Assembly (NCBI GenBank): GCA_000510425.1
Contig: AZKM01000028.1
Span: 30,920-94,919 of the forward strand
Reading direction: 5' to 3'
Length of the DNA stretch: 64,000 bases
Origin: Eubacterium nodatum ATCC 33099
GTDB taxonomy: Bacteria > Bacillota > Clostridia > Peptostreptococcales > Anaerovoracaceae
Part shown: one piece after another, positions 5,125 to 51,373 of the stretch
Position numbering within the stretch: position 1 is the first letter of the stretch
How the letters are laid out: each line of letters starts with the position of its first letter
Notes under the pieces: generated by a model
The model's database searches: none
Told to the model about the DNA's origin: nothing
The model's input: only the letters and a program-made list of their open reading frames with translations
Made by a program: the position numbers and the translations under genes

Positions 5125-5200
5125 TGGTGCCCAGTCTCGGAATCGAACCAAGGACACAGGGATTTTCAGTCCCTTGCTCTACCAACTGAGCTAACTGGGC
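5125..5200 (-). tRNA. tRNA-Phe (GAA)
   Basis: 76 nt with encoded CCA. A complete cloverleaf with anticodon loop CTGAAAA. Last gene of the 15-tRNA operon. Confidence 0.95.
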
Positions 5201-5228
5201 ACACTCTTATAAAGTGATTTTATTAAAT

Positions 5229-5305
5229 TGGTGGGCCACCAGGGACTTGAACCCGGGACCTGCCGGTTATGAGCCGGATGCTCTGACCAACTGAGCTAGT
5301 GGCCC
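5229..5305 (-). tRNA. tRNA with CAT anticodon, probably Ile2 (lysidine-modified) rather than elongator Met
   Basis: 77 nt with encoded CCA and anticodon loop CTCATAA. The acceptor stem GGGCCAC resembles isoleucine tRNAs, and the anticodon stem lacks the three G-C pairs of an initiator. Two stem positions appear mismatched: 27-43 (T-C) and one pair of the T stem (C-T). The Ile2 versus Met call is uncertain. Confidence 0.85.
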
Positions 5306-5319
5306 ACGATTTAAAAAAA

Positions 5320-5396
5320 TGGTCGGGGTGGCAGGATTTGAACCCGCGGCCCACTGGTCCCAAACCAGTTGCGCTACCAAGCTGCGCTACACCCCG
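5320..5396 (-). tRNA. tRNA-Pro (TGG)
   Basis: 77 nt with encoded CCA and anticodon loop TTTGGGA. A normal cloverleaf with acceptor CGGGGTG. Confidence 0.95.
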
Positions 5397-5455
5397 AAAA
5401 TCAGTTTCATCATCTCAACAACGATATTATAATATTTTCAAATAGTAAAGTCAAA

Positions 5456-5531
5456 TGGCAGGGGCAGAAGGATTCGAACCCTCGACACGCGGTTTTGGAG
5501 ACCGCTGCTCTACCAACTGAGCTATACCCCT
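5456..5531 (-). tRNA. tRNA-Trp (CCA)
   Basis: 76 nt with encoded CCA end. Anticodon loop CTCCAAA and discriminator G, as usual for tRNA-Trp. Confidence 0.95.
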
Positions 5532-5541
5532 ATAATAAATA

Positions 5542-5633
5542 TGGCGGAGAAGGCGAGATTCGAACTCGCGCGGCCCTAAACGAACCCTAACGGTTTAGCA
5601 AACCGTCCTCTTCAGCCACTTGAGTACTTCTCC
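5542..5633 (-). tRNA. tRNA-Ser (GCT)
   Basis: 92 nt class II tRNA with a long variable arm, anticodon loop TTGCTAA and encoded CCA. Confidence 0.95.
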
Positions 5634-5670
5634 AGGCTTTATTATCGGCGCATGTATTTGAATCCCTAAA

Positions 5671-5756
<86 letters not shown>

Positions 5757-5778
5757 ATACGATCGGCATTCGTAATAT

Positions 5779-5854
5779 TGGTGACCCATCGGAGATTCGA
5801 ACTCCGGACACCTTGATTAAAAGTCAAGTGCTCTGCCAACTGAGCTAATGGGTC
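5779..5854 (-). tRNA. tRNA-Lys (TTT)
   Basis: 76 nt with encoded CCA and anticodon loop CTTTTAA. Confidence 0.95.
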
Positions 5855-5861
5855 ATAAAAC

Positions 5862-5936
5862 TGGCTGGGGTAGCGGGGATCGAACCTGCGCATAAGGGAG
5901 TCAAAGTCCCTTGCCTTACCACTTGGCTATACCCCA
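5862..5936 (-). tRNA. tRNA-Gln (TTG)
   Basis: 75 nt with encoded CCA, anticodon loop CTTTGAC and acceptor TGGGGTA, typical of tRNA-Gln. Confidence 0.95.
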
Positions 5937-5972
5937 ACGATGCTACCATCTTTCCGATTTTGAGTTAAAAAA

Positions 5973-6049
5973 TGGTGAGCCCGCAGAGATTCGAACTCTG
6001 GACACACGGCTTAGAAGGCCGATGCTCTATCCAGCTGAGCTACGAGCCC
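5973..6049 (-). tRNA. tRNA-Arg (TCT)
   Basis: 77 nt with encoded CCA and anticodon loop CTTCTAA. Confidence 0.95.
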
Positions 6050-6061
6050 ACACAATTTTAG

Positions 6062-6135
<74 letters not shown>

Positions 6136-6140
6136 ATAAT

Positions 6141-6215
6141 TGGAGCGGAAGACGAGATTCGAACTCGCGACCCTCGCCTTGGCAAGGCGATGCTCTACCC
6201 CTGAGCCACTTCCGC
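6141..6215 (-). tRNA. tRNA-Gly (GCC)
   Basis: 75 nt with encoded CCA and anticodon loop TTGCCAA. It sits 5 bp from the Gly(TCC) gene. Confidence 0.95.
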
Positions 6216-6219
6216 ATAT

Positions 6220-6304
6220 TGGTCGAGGGAGATGGATTCGAACCATCGTAAGCTCAGCTAACGGATTTACAGTCCGCCCCCTTTAGCCACTCGGGCATCC
6301 CTCG
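6220..6304 (-). tRNA. tRNA-Tyr (GTA)
   Basis: 85 nt class II tRNA with a long variable arm, anticodon loop CTGTAAA and encoded CCA. Confidence 0.95.
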
Positions 6305-6320
6305 ATATAAGTTATTAAAT

Positions 6321-6395
6321 TGGAGCTGGCGGAGGGAATCGAACCCCCAACCTGCTGATTACAAATCAGCTGCTCTACCGTTGAGCCACGCCAGC
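6321..6395 (-). tRNA. tRNA-Thr (TGT)
   Basis: 75 nt with encoded CCA and anticodon loop TTTGTAA. Confidence 0.95.
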
Positions 6396-6412
6396 ATTTC
6401 GTAAAATCAAAT

Positions 6413-6489
6413 TGGCGACCAAGACGGGGCTCGAACCCGTGACCTCCAGCGTGACAGGCTGGCATTCTAACCAACTGAACTACTTGGCC
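6413..6489 (-). tRNA. tRNA-Asp (GTC)
   Basis: 77 nt with encoded CCA, anticodon loop CTGTCAC and discriminator G. There is one G-T wobble in the acceptor stem. Confidence 0.95.
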
Positions 6490-6522
6490 ATATCCAGTGC
6501 TGAAAGCACGACCTGAAAATTA

Positions 6523-6598
6523 TGGTGGGCGCTATAGGGCTCGAACCTATGACCCCCTGCTTGTAAGGCAGATGCTCTCCCAGCTGAGCTAAGCGCCC
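6523..6598 (-). tRNA. tRNA-Val (TAC)
   Basis: 76 nt with encoded CCA and anticodon loop CTTACAA. First tRNA of the operon, 37 bp after the -10 element. Confidence 0.95.
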
Positions 6599-34955: not shown

Positions 34956-36365
34956 CTAAACTCTCTTTGCTTTTTTCAGAAAAGCAACATATCCTCTTTT
35001 GGTCTCATAGACATCTGCCTTGCTGGTGGCTTCCCAAGGTGCATGCATATTGAGAACTGCCACACCGCTATCGATTACATTCATGCCATAAAGTGCCAAA
35101 ATATATGCTATGGTTCCCCCACCGCCCAGATCCACTCTGCCAAGTTCTGCCGTCTGAAAATTTACATTCTCTGAATCCAGTATCTCTCTCAAGTGTGCCA
35201 GATACTCTGCATTAGCATCGTTTGAACCGGACTTTCCCCTTGCACCGGTAAATTTGTTAAATACCATTCCATTGCCGAGAAAAGCAACATTTTTACTATC
35301 AAAGCTGCTCTTATAAGTAGGATCATAAGCACTGCTTACATCTGATGAAAGCATAGTGCTTGCTGCAAGTGCTCTCTTAAGAGTCAGCTCACTATATTCT
35401 CCCATCAAACCTATAACCTCTGCTACTGTATTTTCAAAAAACTTAGACTGCATTCCCGTCGCACCTACACTTCCTATTTCCTCTTTATCCACCAAAATAC
35501 AGCAAGCCGTTCTGTTCACCCGGGGAACCTCAAGCATTGCCTTATAAGAAGTGTATGAACAAACTCTGTCATCCTGTCCGTATGATAAAATCATACTTCT
35601 GTCAAGCCCTGCCTCTCTTGCGGCACCTGCAGGCACCACTTCAAGTTCAGCAGAAACAAAGTCTCCTTCATCAAAATCGTAATTTTTACATAAAATTTCA
35701 AGTATAGCCTGTTTTACCTTATCTTTATCTTTATCCTTCACCTCTTCCTCTTTTATTAAAATCGGTTTGTTTCCTACTATTATGTCAAGAGCCTCTCCCT
35801 CTATGACCTTGGCAGCCTTTTTATCCATCTGTTCCTGTGCAAGATGAATCAGAAGATCCGACACGAAGAATACAGGATCATCAGTGCTCTCTCCAATTGA
35901 GATATTAACCCTGTCTCCGTTCTTCTTAATAACAACTCCGTGAAGTGCCAAAGGCATTGCAACCCATTGATATTTCTTGATACCACCATAATAATGTGTG
36001 TCTAAATAGGCAAAACCGCCCTCTTCATACAGAGGATTCTGTTTTACATCCATTCTTGGAGAATCTATATGTGCTCCCAAAATGTTAAGCCCGTTTTCTA
36101 TAGATTCTTCACCGATATTAAACATAACAACAGCCTTATCCATATTAACTGCGTAAACCTTGTCTCCGGCCTTAAGTTTAACATGCTTCTTTATCTTTTC
36201 GTCTAAAGGCAAGTATCCGGCTTCTTCTATATCCGAAACAATTTTAGAAACACATTCCCTCTCTGTTTTACAAGTACTTAAAAAATCCATATATCCTTTG
36301 CAAAACTTCTCGCAATCTTTTAACTGAACTTCACTGTATTTTTCCCATGTGTTAGTATTCTGCAT
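34956..36365 (-). CDS. M18 family aspartyl aminopeptidase
   Basis: About 469 aa. The di-zinc aminopeptidase I family: metal ligands in GAHIDSPR, YGQDDRVCSYTSY, DKEEIGSVGATG and near the end NMHAPWE. It removes N-terminal acidic or neutral residues from peptides in the cytosol. I chose the ATG at 36365, 5 nt from GGAGG, over the ATG one codon earlier. Its start lies inside the end of the GTPase-NYN gene (14 bp overlap), so the two are coupled. Confidence 0.93.
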   Translation of the reverse strand: MQNTNTWEKYSEVQLKDCEKFCKGYMDFLSTCKTERECVSKIVSDIEEAGYLPLDEKIKKHVKLKAGDKVYAVNMDKAVVMFNIGEESIENGLNILGAHIDSPRMDVKQNPLYEEGGFAYLDTHYYGGIKKYQWVAMPLALHGVVIKKNGDRVNISIGESTDDPVFFVSDLLIHLAQEQMDKKAAKVIEGEALDIIVGNKPILIKEEEVKDKDKDKVKQAILEILCKNYDFDEGDFVSAELEVVPAGAAREAGLDRSMILSYGQDDRVCSYTSYKAMLEVPRVNRTACCILVDKEEIGSVGATGMQSKFFENTVAEVIGLMGEYSELTLKRALAASTMLSSDVSSAYDPTYKSSFDSKNVAFLGNGMVFNKFTGARGKSGSNDANAEYLAHLREILDSENVNFQTAELGRVDLGGGGTIAYILALYGMNVIDSGVAVLNMHAPWEATSKADVYETKRGYVAFLKKAKRV

Positions 36366-38910
36366 CATTACCTCCAAAACTTCCCATAGCTTCTACCTCT
36401 TCTAAAAATTCCCTTGAGGACACTCTGTATGCCCCGTGGCCAAGTATTATGAGCTGCTCCAAACCATCCGAAGTAACCACTCTGACATAACTCTTATTTG
36501 CGATGGTTTTCGTAACTTTTTCTATGTACATATCGGCAGTTTCCGCCTCCTTGGTATAGACTACATCGATATTTCTTATCTTTTCCTTTGAGCCAAGCCC
36601 TCCTTTGACCTTATATGCATCAAAGACAAGTATAATCTTCTCATCAGAAAAGCCTCTGTAATTACACAGAATATCTATGAGTCTATCCCTTGCAGCTCCA
36701 AAATCGCTATCTGCCAGTTCAGACAGCTCCTCAGAAGCATAAATCAGATTATATCCGTCTATAAGCAAAAATTTATCTGAATTTGCATCAGGTCTATTTA
36801 TTTCTACCCTTAGGTTAGTTTCTTCAAACCCCGTTTTTTTCGGCGGTTTAATATTTCTCAGATGCCTGTTTTTCTTCTTTTCAATCGGTCCGTATGTACG
36901 CTCAAAAATCACCTTTAATGAAGCTTCATCAGAAGGCAGATGGCTGTGATTTTTATTGTTCAAATCAGCTTCAATTACTGATTCATCAAACTCATCACCT
37001 GTCAACATGGGAGAAATTCTGTCCCAAATCATATCCCATGCAACCGTCTGAATGCTGCCTTTACTGCAAAATATGGAACTTGAAGGGTTCTCCAAATCCA
37101 AATCCGGATTATAGCCTGAGTTTTCTATAATTTCTTCAGTATTTTGACATTCCTCGTAACCCGAAGGAAAGGATGATAATCTTCCTAGTCCTCCGGTGTA
37201 TGAATTAAGTAAAGGTGCATAATCCTTTATCTTTGCAACGGGAACTGTTCCCTTTAAAACAGATTGTGCTTCTTTAGTTTCAGGACTTGAAAACCGTCCG
37301 CCCATATTTTGGATATCTGCCATAGCCCTTCCCAGGTTTTCCATAGGAAGCTCAATTGCAAATTCACACCATGGCTCTAATAAAATGTTTTCCGCCTGCA
37401 TAAGACCCTGTCTGAGAGCCCTAAATGCAGCTTCCCTGAAGTCTCCGCCCTCTGTATGTTTTTTGTGTGCTTTTCCTCCGATTAAAGTTATCTTTACATC
37501 TGTCAGCATGGATCCTGTAAGAACTCCCTTATGCGGCTTTTCTTCCAAATGGGACAAAATCAGATTTTGCCGGCTTTTATCCAAATCATCTTCTCTGCAG
37601 TTCGATAAAAAAATATTTCCCGTGCCTCTCTCTAAAGGTTCAATCATGAGATGAACTTCTGCAAAATGCTTCAGAGGTTCAAAATGCCCTATCCCTTCTA
37701 CCGGCTTTGAACCGGTTGCTAAAGTCTCTCTATAGAGAATCTGCCCTTCTCCAAATTCCACATCATAACCAAATCGTGATTTCACAAGGGATTTCAAAAT
37801 TTCTGTCTGTACCTTTCCCATCATCTGAATTTCTATAACAGAAAGTTCGTCATTCCATGTTACCTTGAGTTTCGGATCTTCTTCGGAAATTTCCATGAAA
37901 TCTTTCAGAGCTTCATGCACATTGACTTCCCCAGGTAAAATCACATTATACAAAAGATATGACTCCATAACTTCTCCCGAAAAATCTTCTGCAGTTCCGA
38001 AGCCCTTTCCAACATATGATTTCAAAAGACCGGTTAATGCACAAATATCCCCCGCTGTCACCTTCTCGACAGGTGTAAACTTATCACCGCTGTAAAGTCT
38101 TATCTGATTTATTTTCTCGCCGTCTAAAGAGTCCTTTACCCTAATTTCACCTCCTGTAACCTTTACAAAAGTTAGTCTTTCTCCTTTTTCATCCCTTATA
38201 ATCTTATAGGTGCTGGCTGAAAAATCACCCGAATAATCGGGAAAAACAGTGTACTCCGAGAGACCGTCCAAAAACTCCTTCACTCCTTCATTTTTCAGTG
38301 CTGTTCCGAAAAAACAGGGAAATATTTCCCTATTGCAAATAGCATCACAAATCTCATCGGGTCGAATAGACTCCCTCTCCAGCATTGCTTCTGTAAGGGT
38401 TTCGCTGGCAAGACTCAGATTATCTGCGAAGCTTTCTTTATCAGAAAAGTTAACAACACCATTTCCAAACTTTTCTCTCAGGATTTCCATAAGTTCATTT
38501 TCTTTCCTGTAGGACAAGTCCATTTTATTGATAAAAATAAATGTTGGAATCCCATATTTTTCAAGTAGTTTCCACAAAGTCACAGTATGTGCCTGAATCC
38601 CATCGTTTGCACTTATAATTAAAACTCCGTAATCTAAAACAGGGAGGGTTCTCTCCATTTCTGCTGCAAAATCCACATGCCCCGGAGTATCCAAAAGGTT
38701 AAAACAAACCTCTCTCCACTGAAAAGAAGTCTGCTTTGAAAATATTGTGATACCTCGATTTCTTTCCATGGGATTCGTGTCAAAGTAAGAATTCCCTTTA
38801 TCCACTCTGCCCAAACTATTCAAATTTCCCGAGCAAAAAAGAAGGGCTTCGGACAAAGTGGTTTTCCCGGAATCCACATGTGCCAAAACTCCTATGGTTA
38901 TTTTTTTCAC
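36352..38910 (-). CDS. TetM/EF-G-like translational GTPase fused to a C-terminal Rae1/YacP-like NYN nuclease
   Basis: 852 aa. Residues 1 to about 660 are a ribosomal-protection-type translational GTPase: G1 AHVDSGKTT, G2 region NRGITI, G3 DTPGH, G4 NKMD, then domains II-V as in TetM/TetO. After a basic linker (about 680-705, rich in Lys/Arg) residues about 712-840 form a NYN domain closely resembling YacP, now called Rae1: FLLIDGYNLIYA, ILVFDAYKVKG, YTKEAETADMYIE and VVTSDGLEQ, which keep the acidic residues of the PIN-like active site. In Bacillus, Rae1 is a separate protein that cuts mRNA in the ribosomal A site. So this protein would bring GTPase and nuclease to the same site. The start overlaps the mnmA stop (ATGA). 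It is unlikely to be an acquired drug-resistance gene. Confidence 0.92.
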   Translation of the reverse strand: MKKITIGVLAHVDSGKTTLSEALLFCSGNLNSLGRVDKGNSYFDTNPMERNRGITIFSKQTSFQWREVCFNLLDTPGHVDFAAEMERTLPVLDYGVLIISANDGIQAHTVTLWKLLEKYGIPTFIFINKMDLSYRKENELMEILREKFGNGVVNFSDKESFADNLSLASETLTEAMLERESIRPDEICDAICNREIFPCFFGTALKNEGVKEFLDGLSEYTVFPDYSGDFSASTYKIIRDEKGERLTFVKVTGGEIRVKDSLDGEKINQIRLYSGDKFTPVEKVTAGDICALTGLLKSYVGKGFGTAEDFSGEVMESYLLYNVILPGEVNVHEALKDFMEISEEDPKLKVTWNDELSVIEIQMMGKVQTEILKSLVKSRFGYDVEFGEGQILYRETLATGSKPVEGIGHFEPLKHFAEVHLMIEPLERGTGNIFLSNCREDDLDKSRQNLILSHLEEKPHKGVLTGSMLTDVKITLIGGKAHKKHTEGGDFREAAFRALRQGLMQAENILLEPWCEFAIELPMENLGRAMADIQNMGGRFSSPETKEAQSVLKGTVPVAKIKDYAPLLNSYTGGLGRLSSFPSGYEECQNTEEIIENSGYNPDLDLENPSSSIFCSKGSIQTVAWDMIWDRISPMLTGDEFDESVIEADLNNKNHSHLPSDEASLKVIFERTYGPIEKKKNRHLRNIKPPKKTGFEETNLRVEINRPDANSDKFLLIDGYNLIYASEELSELADSDFGAARDRLIDILCNYRGFSDEKIILVFDAYKVKGGLGSKEKIRNIDVVYTKEAETADMYIEKVTKTIANKSYVRVVTSDGLEQLIILGHGAYRVSSREFLEEVEAMGSFGGNDAEY

Positions 38911-39971
38911 TTGATAGTTCCTCCACCAACCACTACATCATTATCATATAACACCACTGCCTGACCCGGAGTAATTGCCCTTTGAGGCTCATCAAACACC
39001 AGATGGATTTTATCCTGCCCAATAGGATACACAGTTGCAGGTTGTTCTTTCTGGCTGTATCTCACCCGTGCTTTGACTTTAAGCTCCTTTGGCGGAAACT
39101 CATGAAAAATCCAGTTAAAATCAGCTGCATCAAGTTCTCTGCTGAATAAATCGCTGTTTTTCCCAAGTATAACTCTATTTCTTTCCACATCTTTTTCCAG
39201 GACATACATTGGGTGGGAAAGTGCAAGTCCAAGTCCCTTTCTCTGCCCTATTGTGTACCTTATAATGCCTTTATGTCTTCCTAAAATCTTTCCCTCAGTA
39301 TCCACGAAATCACCGGGTTCATATTCCATACCTGTAAATCTTTTTATAGCTGATGCATAATCACCATCCGGAACAAAACATATATCTTGACTGTCTCTCT
39401 TTTCTGCATTTATAAAATTATATTTTTCTGCAACCGCTCTGGTTTCAGTCTTTGACATTTCTCCCAAAGGAAATATGGTATGTGCGAGTTGTTCCTGGGA
39501 TAAGTTATATAGAAAATAGCTCTGGTCCTTCGTCTTATCTTTGGACTTCTTCAAAAGAAAACGGTCACTTCGTTTTTCCACCCTCGCATAATGCCCTGTG
39601 ACTATGTAGTCGCATCCAAAAAGCTTTCCCTTTTCATAAAGAGCTTGAAATTTTAAGTATCTATTGCAATCTACACATGGATTTGGGGTTTCTCCCACCT
39701 CATATGAATTCACAAATCTATCTATTACACACCTGCGAAAATCACCTCGAAAATCCAAAACATAATGTTTTATTCCTATCTTGTCGCATACCGTTCTTGC
39801 ATCTTCTGCATCATCCATGGAGCAACAGGTTTTATCAGAATAAGTGCCTGAGCCTTCACTATCAAAAAGTCTCATGGTTGCCCCGATACAGTCGTAACCT
39901 TTATCCTTTATTAACTGAGCAGCTACGCTGGAGTCAACACCACCGCTCATGGCGACCAATACCTTCTTCAT
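38907..39971 (-). CDS. mnmA: tRNA-specific 2-thiouridylase MnmA
   Basis: 354 aa. It thiolates U34 of Lys, Glu and Gln tRNAs; Lys(TTT) and Gln(TTG) genes are in this window. PP-loop AMSGGVDSSVAA, catalytic Cys in TPNPCVDCNRYLKF and the second Cys in DSQDICFVPDGDY. It begins directly after the flavoprotein gene (stop at 39972) and overlaps the GTPase-NYN gene by 4 bp, giving a tRNA/ribosome-themed string. Confidence 0.95.
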   Translation of the reverse strand: MKKVLVAMSGGVDSSVAAQLIKDKGYDCIGATMRLFDSEGSGTYSDKTCCSMDDAEDARTVCDKIGIKHYVLDFRGDFRRCVIDRFVNSYEVGETPNPCVDCNRYLKFQALYEKGKLFGCDYIVTGHYARVEKRSDRFLLKKSKDKTKDQSYFLYNLSQEQLAHTIFPLGEMSKTETRAVAEKYNFINAEKRDSQDICFVPDGDYASAIKRFTGMEYEPGDFVDTEGKILGRHKGIIRYTIGQRKGLGLALSHPMYVLEKDVERNRVILGKNSDLFSRELDAADFNWIFHEFPPKELKVKARVRYSQKEQPATVYPIGQDKIHLVFDEPQRAITPGQAVVLYDNDVVVGGGTIK

Positions 39972-50681: not shown

Positions 50682-51224
50682 CTATCTAATCGTCAAAAGC
50701 TCCGATACTTCTTTGCGAGGAGGTGCTGCCGGTTCTTTCTCTGCAAACCCCACCGGAACCAAAGCTGCAACCACTTCATCTTCCGGAAGCTCTAAAGCCT
50801 CGGCAACTTTCTTATCATCGAAAATCCCCATTATCACAGTGCCATATCCAAGCTCATGGGCAGCAAGGGAAAAAGTCTGAGTTGCAATTCCCGCATCAAA
50901 AACCTCCCACTTGTCTCCCTTGTTTGTGCTTTCTTCTCCGGATTTCTCATAGCCGGATATTCCATGTTTATAGGTTACCACCACAAGAGCCGGTGCTCTG
51001 TGAATAATCTTCTGGTTAAATACAAAACCGAGAACACATTCGTCAGCAATCTTTGCTTTTAATTTCTCATCAAAAACCCCATGATACCTTGTAACTTGAG
51101 TGTTCTTCCAAGAAGGTGCATAGGATGCCAGTGCCACAATTTCTTCCAGTTGCTTGGGCGTAATCTTTCTGTCAAGGTATTTTCTGATACTTCTTCTGCC
51201 AACGATACAATCCTTTGTCTGCAT
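50682..51224 (-). CDS. Nitroreductase family protein
   Basis: 180 aa FMN enzyme. The start GRRSIRKYLDRKIT with the FMN-phosphate-binding Arg residues, ASYAPSWKNTQ, and the late ALELPEDEVVAALVPVGFAEKEP are typical. It transfers electrons from NAD(P)H to nitro compounds, quinones or flavin substrates. The ATG at 51224 has GGAGG 5 nt upstream; longer frames reach into the tRNA-Leu gene and are not real. The start codon lies 19 nt after the tRNA 3' end, so tRNA and mRNA are probably one transcript. Confidence 0.9.
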   Translation of the reverse strand: MQTKDCIVGRRSIRKYLDRKITPKQLEEIVALASYAPSWKNTQVTRYHGVFDEKLKAKIADECVLGFVFNQKIIHRAPALVVVTYKHGISGYEKSGEESTNKGDKWEVFDAGIATQTFSLAAHELGYGTVIMGIFDDKKVAEALELPEDEVVAALVPVGFAEKEPAAPPRKEVSELLTIR

Positions 51225-51243
51225 ATCTACCTCCAAAAAAAAA

Positions 51244-51326
51244 TGGTGCGGTCTAAGGGATTCGAACCCCCACGGTTTCCCACACGGACCTGAACCGTGC
51301 GCGTCTGCCAATTCCGCCAAGACCGC
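51244..51326 (-). tRNA. tRNA-Leu (CAG)
   Basis: 83 nt class II tRNA with encoded CCA and anticodon loop TTCAGGT. On the RNA strand a T9 run directly follows the CCA and is in turn followed by the Shine-Dalgarno of the nitroreductase gene. The 5' side abuts a terminator-like hairpin. Confidence 0.95.
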
Positions 51327-51373
51327 AAAAACAAACACCTCAGAAATCACTATTCAGAGCTGTCGAGGTGTTT
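51327..51373 (-). terminator. Terminator-like hairpin between the DUF1292 gene and tRNA-Leu
   Basis: On the minus strand a 9-bp stem AAACACCTC/GAGGTGTTT is followed by GTTTTT, which directly touches the first base of tRNA-Leu. It either ends the DUF1292 transcript or acts as a processing/attenuation site for the tRNA. No obvious separate tRNA promoter was found. Confidence 0.65.

Follow-up and report, generated by a model that had tools for sequence, protein, structure and literature searches.

EF-G and the tetracycline resistance protein TetM bind at the ribosomal A site, with domain IV inserted into the decoding centre. The nuclease Rae1 (YacP) is described as entering and cutting at the same site in the accessible text of three papers (PMC10100781, PMC12320835, PMC6613710), and a polypeptide joining the two kinds of protein is already in print: the accessible text of Atkinson 2015 (BMC Genomics 16:78, PMC4342817) reports, for ten clostridial species, Tet proteins that carry an NYN domain, files the fusion as Tet and proposes RNase-based resistance as a possible mechanism. 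The architecture itself is therefore not new. Here we analyse one such fusion, encoded in a stretch of 64,000 nucleotides (nt) from Eubacterium nodatum ATCC 33099 (contig AZKM01000028.1; hereafter the window, in whose coordinates all features are given), and argue that it probably replaces Rae1 as a housekeeping, ribosome-associated mRNA endonuclease built on a translational GTPase. What is new is the mutual exclusivity with standalone Rae1, the empty slot between rlmB and sigH together with rae1 remnants in it, a GTPase half best seen as other than Tet, and a linker motif specific to the fusion. Among the papers that our literature searches listed, in several cases the best 20 of hundreds or more, no further one on the fusion was seen, and an earlier mention in Condon 2018 (by its title, on the distribution of Rae1) is possible.

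An original prediction, made by a model from the letters of the window, had placed the GTPase and a NYN domain close to Rae1/YacP in one polypeptide, and both parts of that claim hold, since a single open reading frame (ORF) of 852 amino acids (aa) spans exactly 36352-38910 and its C-terminal part is recognized as NYN_YacP. Its features are as follows.

36352..38910, minus strand: fused gene, 852 aa, translational GTPase plus YacP/Rae1-type NYN nuclease, GTG start
37141..38901, minus strand: GTPase domains G to V, residues 4-590, with the motifs G1 AHVDSGKT, G3 DTPGH and G4 NKMD present
37435..37476, minus strand: domain IV tip loop, residues 479-492, GKAHKKHTEGGDFR
37015..37098, minus strand: C-terminal cap, residues 605-632, S[VI]FCxxG...W, common to unfused members of the GTPase subfamily
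36886..36921, minus strand: fusion-specific linker motif, residues 664-675, in a linker that is otherwise poorly predicted
36385..36771, minus strand: NYN_YacP (Rae1-like) nuclease domain, residues 714-842, from Pfam and alignment to YacP

Pfam finds GTP_EFTU at residues 4-220 (E 5e-49), EFG_IV at 389-506, EFG_C at 510-590 and NYN_YacP at 715-842 (E 6e-45, 153.7 bits vs a cut-off of 24.6); domains II and III fall below the Pfam cut-offs, yet they align in the PDB-sequence and profile comparisons, so that the protein has the G motifs and the domains G to V of an EF2-type translational GTPase. In a sequence search of the PDB, TetM (3j9y, E 2e-73) matches the N-terminal part and YacP/Rae1 of Bacillus subtilis (5mq9, E 1e-24) the C-terminal part, with D718, N721, D764, D793 and D815 aligned to YacP D7, N10, D53, D81 and D104. 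An AlphaFold2 model built from 60 sequences (mean predicted local distance difference test 79.3, predicted template modelling score 0.60) has folded domains, the NYN part showing strands, helices and two short weak loops, and a poorly predicted stretch at residues 637-705. A PDB fold comparison, which covered the GTPase part up to residue 632, returned EF-G, EF2, spliceosomal and TetM-type chains, and the NYN assignment comes from sequence.

Conservation was assessed in 36 fused proteins from loci of different genomes (the window's included) and in a second set of 22 closer homologues. The five NYN active-site residues, of which we take the acidic ones to be catalytic, are invariant in 36/36 and 22/22, respectively. 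On the GTPase side, the tested G2, G3 and G4 residues, the switch-II His among them, are present in all 36 fused proteins, and the G1 Lys and Thr in 35 (there is one gap), while G1 His11 is Asn in six. Neither half thus looks dead, as the original prediction had proposed from the window's copy; loss of the acidic residues in relatives, which it had named as grounds for abandoning the idea, is not what we see.

The fusion is not an artefact of one assembly, and the architecture is widespread. That is, all of the best 120 of 7,998 scored homologues carry NYN_YacP, a query made of the linker and the NYN domain gave at least 7,995 matches, all with E <= 1e-5 (proteins of 0.55-1.75 times the full length), and the named relatives at 52% identity among the homologues listed are Hornefia and Aminicella. 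Fused and standalone Rae1 are mutually exclusive, an observation made here for the first time: the fused copy is the sole NYN_YacP in 13/13 fusion genomes, and in the order of genome G002 (136 genomes) 113 genomes have NYN_YacP, 46 of them fused, 67 standalone and none both (23 have neither), vs 22.7 genomes with both forms expected by chance, an expectation that ignores shared descent and whose formal probability is not readable as a count of events. Three second NYN matches in this order are fragments, namely the two slot remnants described below and one (in G524) at a contig end. The 46 include a broken gene (L227, in G452), which keeps G-domain pieces and the NYN domain and has lost most of domains III-V.

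Other taxa gave a similar picture. In the order of G005, 40/137 genomes have NYN_YacP, 39 of them plainly fused (several frames hold a stop) and none with two copies, the 160-aa frame of G647 ending undecided at a contig end; in the order of G010, 27/121 genomes have it, five fused (frames 853-989) and 22 short (143-420 aa, three of these being 340, 370 and 420), again none with two copies. In the class of G016 (151 genomes), the GTPase was matched in 18 genomes and every frame is unfused, although eight of the 20 matches, weak ones at 507-529 bits, may represent other proteins of Tet type, and six genomes have only such matches. A phylum-wide draw yielded an NYN match in 208/398 genomes, and of the 150 listed 20 are fused and 130 standalone; of two genomes with double matches, one holds two standalone copies and the other a copy split over two contigs. 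Two loci of the order of G002, L165 and L171, were classed as standalone Rae1. We thus found no separate Rae1 in the fusion-bearing genomes searched, a check for which the original prediction had asked. The 64-kb window has no second Rae1, and we infer from the relatives that its own genome lacks one as well.

The place from which rae1 is missing can also be examined directly. Standalone rae1 stands in the order cysS-mrnC-rlmB-rae1-sigH (sigH was named by TIGR02859 and the other neighbours by eye), and 18/22 standalone loci have both rlmB and sigH, with gaps of 459-693 nt between them. The sigH region was read in 39 of the 46 fused genomes (six have no sigH match and G452 was left out); in 36 of these, rlmB precedes sigH on the same strand, and the other three have no rlmB match. 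The two genes abut in 27 of the 36 (gaps of -33 to +94 nt), and the remaining nine comprise an odd overlap of -623 nt, five gaps of 150-243 nt, one of 504 nt, and insertions of 1958 and 3269 nt. The 15 fused gaps of at least 40 nt were searched with a standalone-Rae1 profile (database size set to 100), with residue-shuffled controls that reached at most 4.8 bits. The 504-nt gap of L128 holds a rae1 remnant on the sense strand with a stop inside (E 4e-25), and the 243-nt gap of L129 an N-terminal rae1 piece, also on the sense strand (E 2e-12), with a weak C-terminal piece behind it; the same two genomes carry open fusion frames of 884 and 878 aa, respectively. A match of 5.6 bits in the L175 gap was not counted, being near the best shuffled control. 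Empty slot and remnants together form the pattern expected of functional replacement, and these gene-order data make replacement of rae1 well supported. The six gaps of 150-504 nt, the two insertions and the three loci without rlmB all fall inside one 12-row subclade of the GTPase tree, and this clustering of atypical slots suggests that rae1 was lost later there, and hence more than once.

The fused gene itself is not a small gene standing alone between rlmB and sigH: the window has no rlmB or sigH match, and none was seen in the flanking regions read around the other fused loci. In three genomes (G470, contig C96; G491, C2; G451, C1) the fused gene shares contig and strand with sigH and lies only about 9-12 kb from it; beyond these, it is not near sigH in the flanks read.

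Trees point to one or few origins. In the NYN tree (20 standalone and 35 fused rows), the two states are separated by 3 label changes vs a shuffled mean of 16.6; the starred branches force at least two changes, a single change occurs in 0/200 bootstrap trees and standalone L173 pairs with fused L009 with support, while a single fused clade is not rejected (approximately unbiased test, p-AU 0.458). The GTPase tree, made by a quick method with support from the Shimodaira-Hasegawa-like approximate likelihood ratio test (SH-aLRT) only, and with L136 as a fused and L218 as an unfused row, gathers the fused rows into a single clade with an SH-aLRT support of 99 and leaves the unfused Firmicute members outside. 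This clade also holds L224, cut by a contig end, and three actinobacterial rows without NYN (L012, L014 and L018; two Bifidobacterium and one Collinsella), a state that rests on three genomes and would have arisen by secondary loss or by a transfer of its own. NYN_YacP was not matched in either Bifidobacterium genome, and the Collinsella genome has a diverged copy beside an rlmB-like gene.

We envisage the following course of events, in which the order of steps, cleavage at the A site and the role of GTP are what we infer. An EF-G/Tet-like GTPase subfamily would have acquired the NYN domain of Rae1 through a flexible linker, whereupon the original rae1 became redundant and was lost from the rlmB-rae1-sigH slot. 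The GTP-bound factor would bind ribosomes with an empty or slow A site, domain IV and the cap would probe the decoding centre, the tethered NYN domain, acting after domain IV or beside it, would cut the mRNA in or at the A site, and GTP hydrolysis would time the release. A possible, if tentative, elaboration is a GTP-clocked A-site nuclease, in which the translational GTPase selects stalled ribosomes and the private linker helix hands the NYN domain to the mRNA after domain IV has left the decoding centre; such a factor would parallel in kind, among bacteria, the Ski7/Hbs1 idea discussed below.

Several observations weigh against replacement of Rae1 by a GTPase-borne nuclease. Thirteen of the 15 gaps searched have no rae1 remnant above controls. 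Neither form is present in 23/136, 97/137 and 94/121 genomes of the three orders, which means that either the function can be dispensed with or parts of the assemblies are missing. Exclusivity does not amount to many independent observations, because the fusions descend from one or few events, and the GTPase evidently has a use without NYN, since the three actinobacterial members nested among fused ones lack it. Finally, domain IV and a docked Rae1 would compete for the decoding centre, so that cutting would need to be sequential or occur at the mRNA entry side.

Alternatively, the fusion may be one of convenience, with the NYN domain working as Rae1, the GTPase working as its unfused relatives do, and hydrolysis and cleavage uncoupled. 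Unfused relatives do exist, most of the linker is poorly predicted and the three actinobacterial rows do without NYN; also, 12/13 genomes with an unfused GTPase have standalone Rae1 vs 55/77 of those without a GTPase match, a co-occurrence that is weak by itself and that we did not use as evidence of a link (the 13 include a partial frame in G438 and G429, whose GTPase is outside the subfamily; G495, cut by a contig end, was set aside). We nevertheless consider this explanation unlikely in view of the linker and the tail. The linker motif [EAS]-[ILV]-x-x-[IV]-[FLIM]-x-x-[TA], often ELxxIFERTYG, was read by eye in 32/32 linkers examined (the extraction pattern left out four of the 36 fused proteins), with Glu as first residue in 30, Ser in the window and Ala in L010, and L665, I668-E670 and T672-G674 are invariant in 22/22 closer homologues. 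It occurs in neither unfused parent: none of the unfused GTPases showed it, their sequences stopping within about 35 residues of the cap, and standalone Rae1 starts directly at the NYN domain without it. By these alignments the motif is specific to the fusion. The flexible linker comprises roughly 75 residues in the window protein; that of L019 has 217 aa, swollen by a G/S/T/A-rich repeat.

The tail behind the NYN core also differs. It measures 64-73 residues in all 18 standalone copies that have the anchor motif (a further two lack it) and 33-78 residues in 35 fused copies, 44 or less in 11 of them; the window protein has 37 residues after TSD and its match covers profile positions 1-130 of 166, short of a full Rae1 tail. 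The tail seems important in B. subtilis, since loss-of-function suppressors in rae1 (R166P and a deletion near residue 157; accessible text of PMC6613710) map there. Fused forms seem able to do without part of it, as though recruitment had passed to the GTPase.

A further alternative, proposed in the accessible text of PMC4342817, is that the protein is a tetracycline ribosome-protection protein whose added RNase represents a new resistance mechanism. It has the domain order of Tet proteins, tet_protect is its best NCBIfam match, and some public relatives are named TetM/TetW/TetO/TetS. However, the tet_protect score is 411.5 bits vs a cut-off of 775 (five unfused relatives, at 355-436 bits, are under it too), that of the TetM/W/O/S model 273.6 vs 1100, and that of the EF-G model TIGR00484 273.5 vs 659.4; the protein thus scores as neither. 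A profile of 17 subfamily members is equally close to TetM (414.2 bits), EF-G (4m1k, 413.8 bits) and TetO (413.4 bits). Hence, the label "TetM-type" in the original prediction overstates the case.

The domain IV tip points the same way. In TetM, the YSPV motif of loop III displaces the drug. The role of the domain IV loop in Tet proteins is treated in the accessible text of PMC4342817. In the fusion, the tip reads A-H-x-K-H-T, its Lys, His and Thr aligned with, and replacing, TetM Pro509-Val-Ser in 36/36 fused proteins, and the tip His aligns with EF-G H573, present in most members. H482, K484, H485 and T486 are found in 36/36 fused and 16-17/17 unfused members; the 22 closer homologues all have K484, H485 and T486, with Ser at position 482 in four. 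Fused and unfused members alike have the cap S[VI]FCxxG...W behind domain V. From these comparisons, the GTPase is best seen as a subfamily of its own, EF-G/Tet-like and probably not a Tet drug-resistance protein. Outside this clade, beside Tet-like and EF-G rows, stands L222 (in G429), an unfused 661-aa GTPase without the cap motif.

The surroundings of the fused genes also argue against resistance, in that neighbourhoods are varied and the gene occurs on contigs of up to 4.7 Mb, where it is therefore chromosomal. We regard the resistance explanation as quite improbable and, because the fusion stands in for the housekeeping gene rae1, which is missing from its operon and has left remnants in the slot, favour a housekeeping factor, as had been suggested initially. 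The last alternative gives the NYN half a role in rRNA or tRNA maturation, or in ribosome assembly, and makes the GTPase an assembly factor. It takes up an earlier NYN proposal (cited in the accessible text of PMC4342817), the position of standalone rae1 beside rlmB and mrnC, and the non-additivity of rae1 and yacO mutants (accessible text of PMC6613710), and is scarcely credible for a protein whose nuclease relative Rae1 is described as an A-site mRNA nuclease (PMC6613710, PMC10100781, PMC12320835, as accessible) and whose GTPase carries the domains of a 70S A-site factor.

Two genes flank the fusion in the window, both named by eye.

38907..39971, minus strand: mnmA, upstream; its stop overlaps the GTG start of the fusion by 4 nt
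34956..36377, minus strand: M18-type aminopeptidase-like ORF, downstream; overlaps the 3' end of the fusion

The fused gene had been described as tied to mnmA, but this coupling is local to the window: mnmA lies beside 0/34 other fused loci (some flanks are cut by contig ends), and we rejected a conserved mnmA neighbourhood. The most recurrent neighbour family occurs in at most 5/35 fused loci, the window included. The gene trxB is found two genes downstream in the window. In L148 and L153 it follows the fusion after about 400 nt, and L003 and L007 have it at a distance of about 6 kb; these cases are too few to count. Elsewhere in the window, 15 tRNA genes are clustered on the minus strand (5125-6598), and a predicted 222-aa ORF (50682..51350) encloses a tRNA-Leu(CAG) of its own strand at 51244-51326 and is therefore probably not a gene as listed.

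These findings bear on annotation. Most public relatives are unnamed, and a few are called translation factor GTPase, elongation factor G or tetracycline-resistance protein; records P0005, P0057, P0067 and P0134 are fusions named TetM/TetW/TetO/TetS family, and the window protein is far below the cut-off of that model. Clostridial genes of this type labelled tetracycline resistance are more likely housekeeping quality-control factors, and if so, some false resistance names could be removed from surveys. For the thousands of protein clusters of the fusion type, Rae1 in another body represents a testable alternative. If it is correct, the fusion would show how a GTPase targets a nuclease to bacterial ribosomes and would provide a natural separation-of-function series (unfused GTPase plus Rae1, fused, GTPase alone); the GTP-clocked nuclease, if true, would be a class of ribosome surveillance not described so far, which resistance-gene names have partly concealed.

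Compared with known systems, the protein resembles TetM/TetO in its GTPase domains G-V, the similar length of the GTPase part and the DFR after the tip loop, and differs in the tip loop, the curated score, the cap and the NYN domain. To EF-G it has equal profile similarity, and the tip His stands at the EF-G H573 position in most members of the fusion subfamily, but it has K-H-T, not V-D-S, after this His, is smaller and bears the NYN domain. Ski7 and Hbs1 are the eukaryotic translational GTPases of mRNA decay. The likeness is in idea only, that of linking a translational GTPase with the breakdown of mRNA on stalled ribosomes (accessible text of PMC4342817); both are EF1-type, homologous only at the superfamily level and without a nuclease on the GTPase itself. 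With Rae1/YacP of B. subtilis (PDB 5mq8/5mq9), the window copy shares the NYN domain and the five active-site residues, whereas it is fused to a GTPase, lies elsewhere in the genome and lacks the C-terminal tail. Closest of all is the clostridial Tet-NYN fusion of Atkinson 2015, likewise a Tet-like translational GTPase with a YacP-like NYN domain; relative to the accessible text of that report, the fusion appears here in thousands of protein clusters, as a distinct subfamily with unfused relatives, and as exclusive with, and apparently replacing, Rae1.

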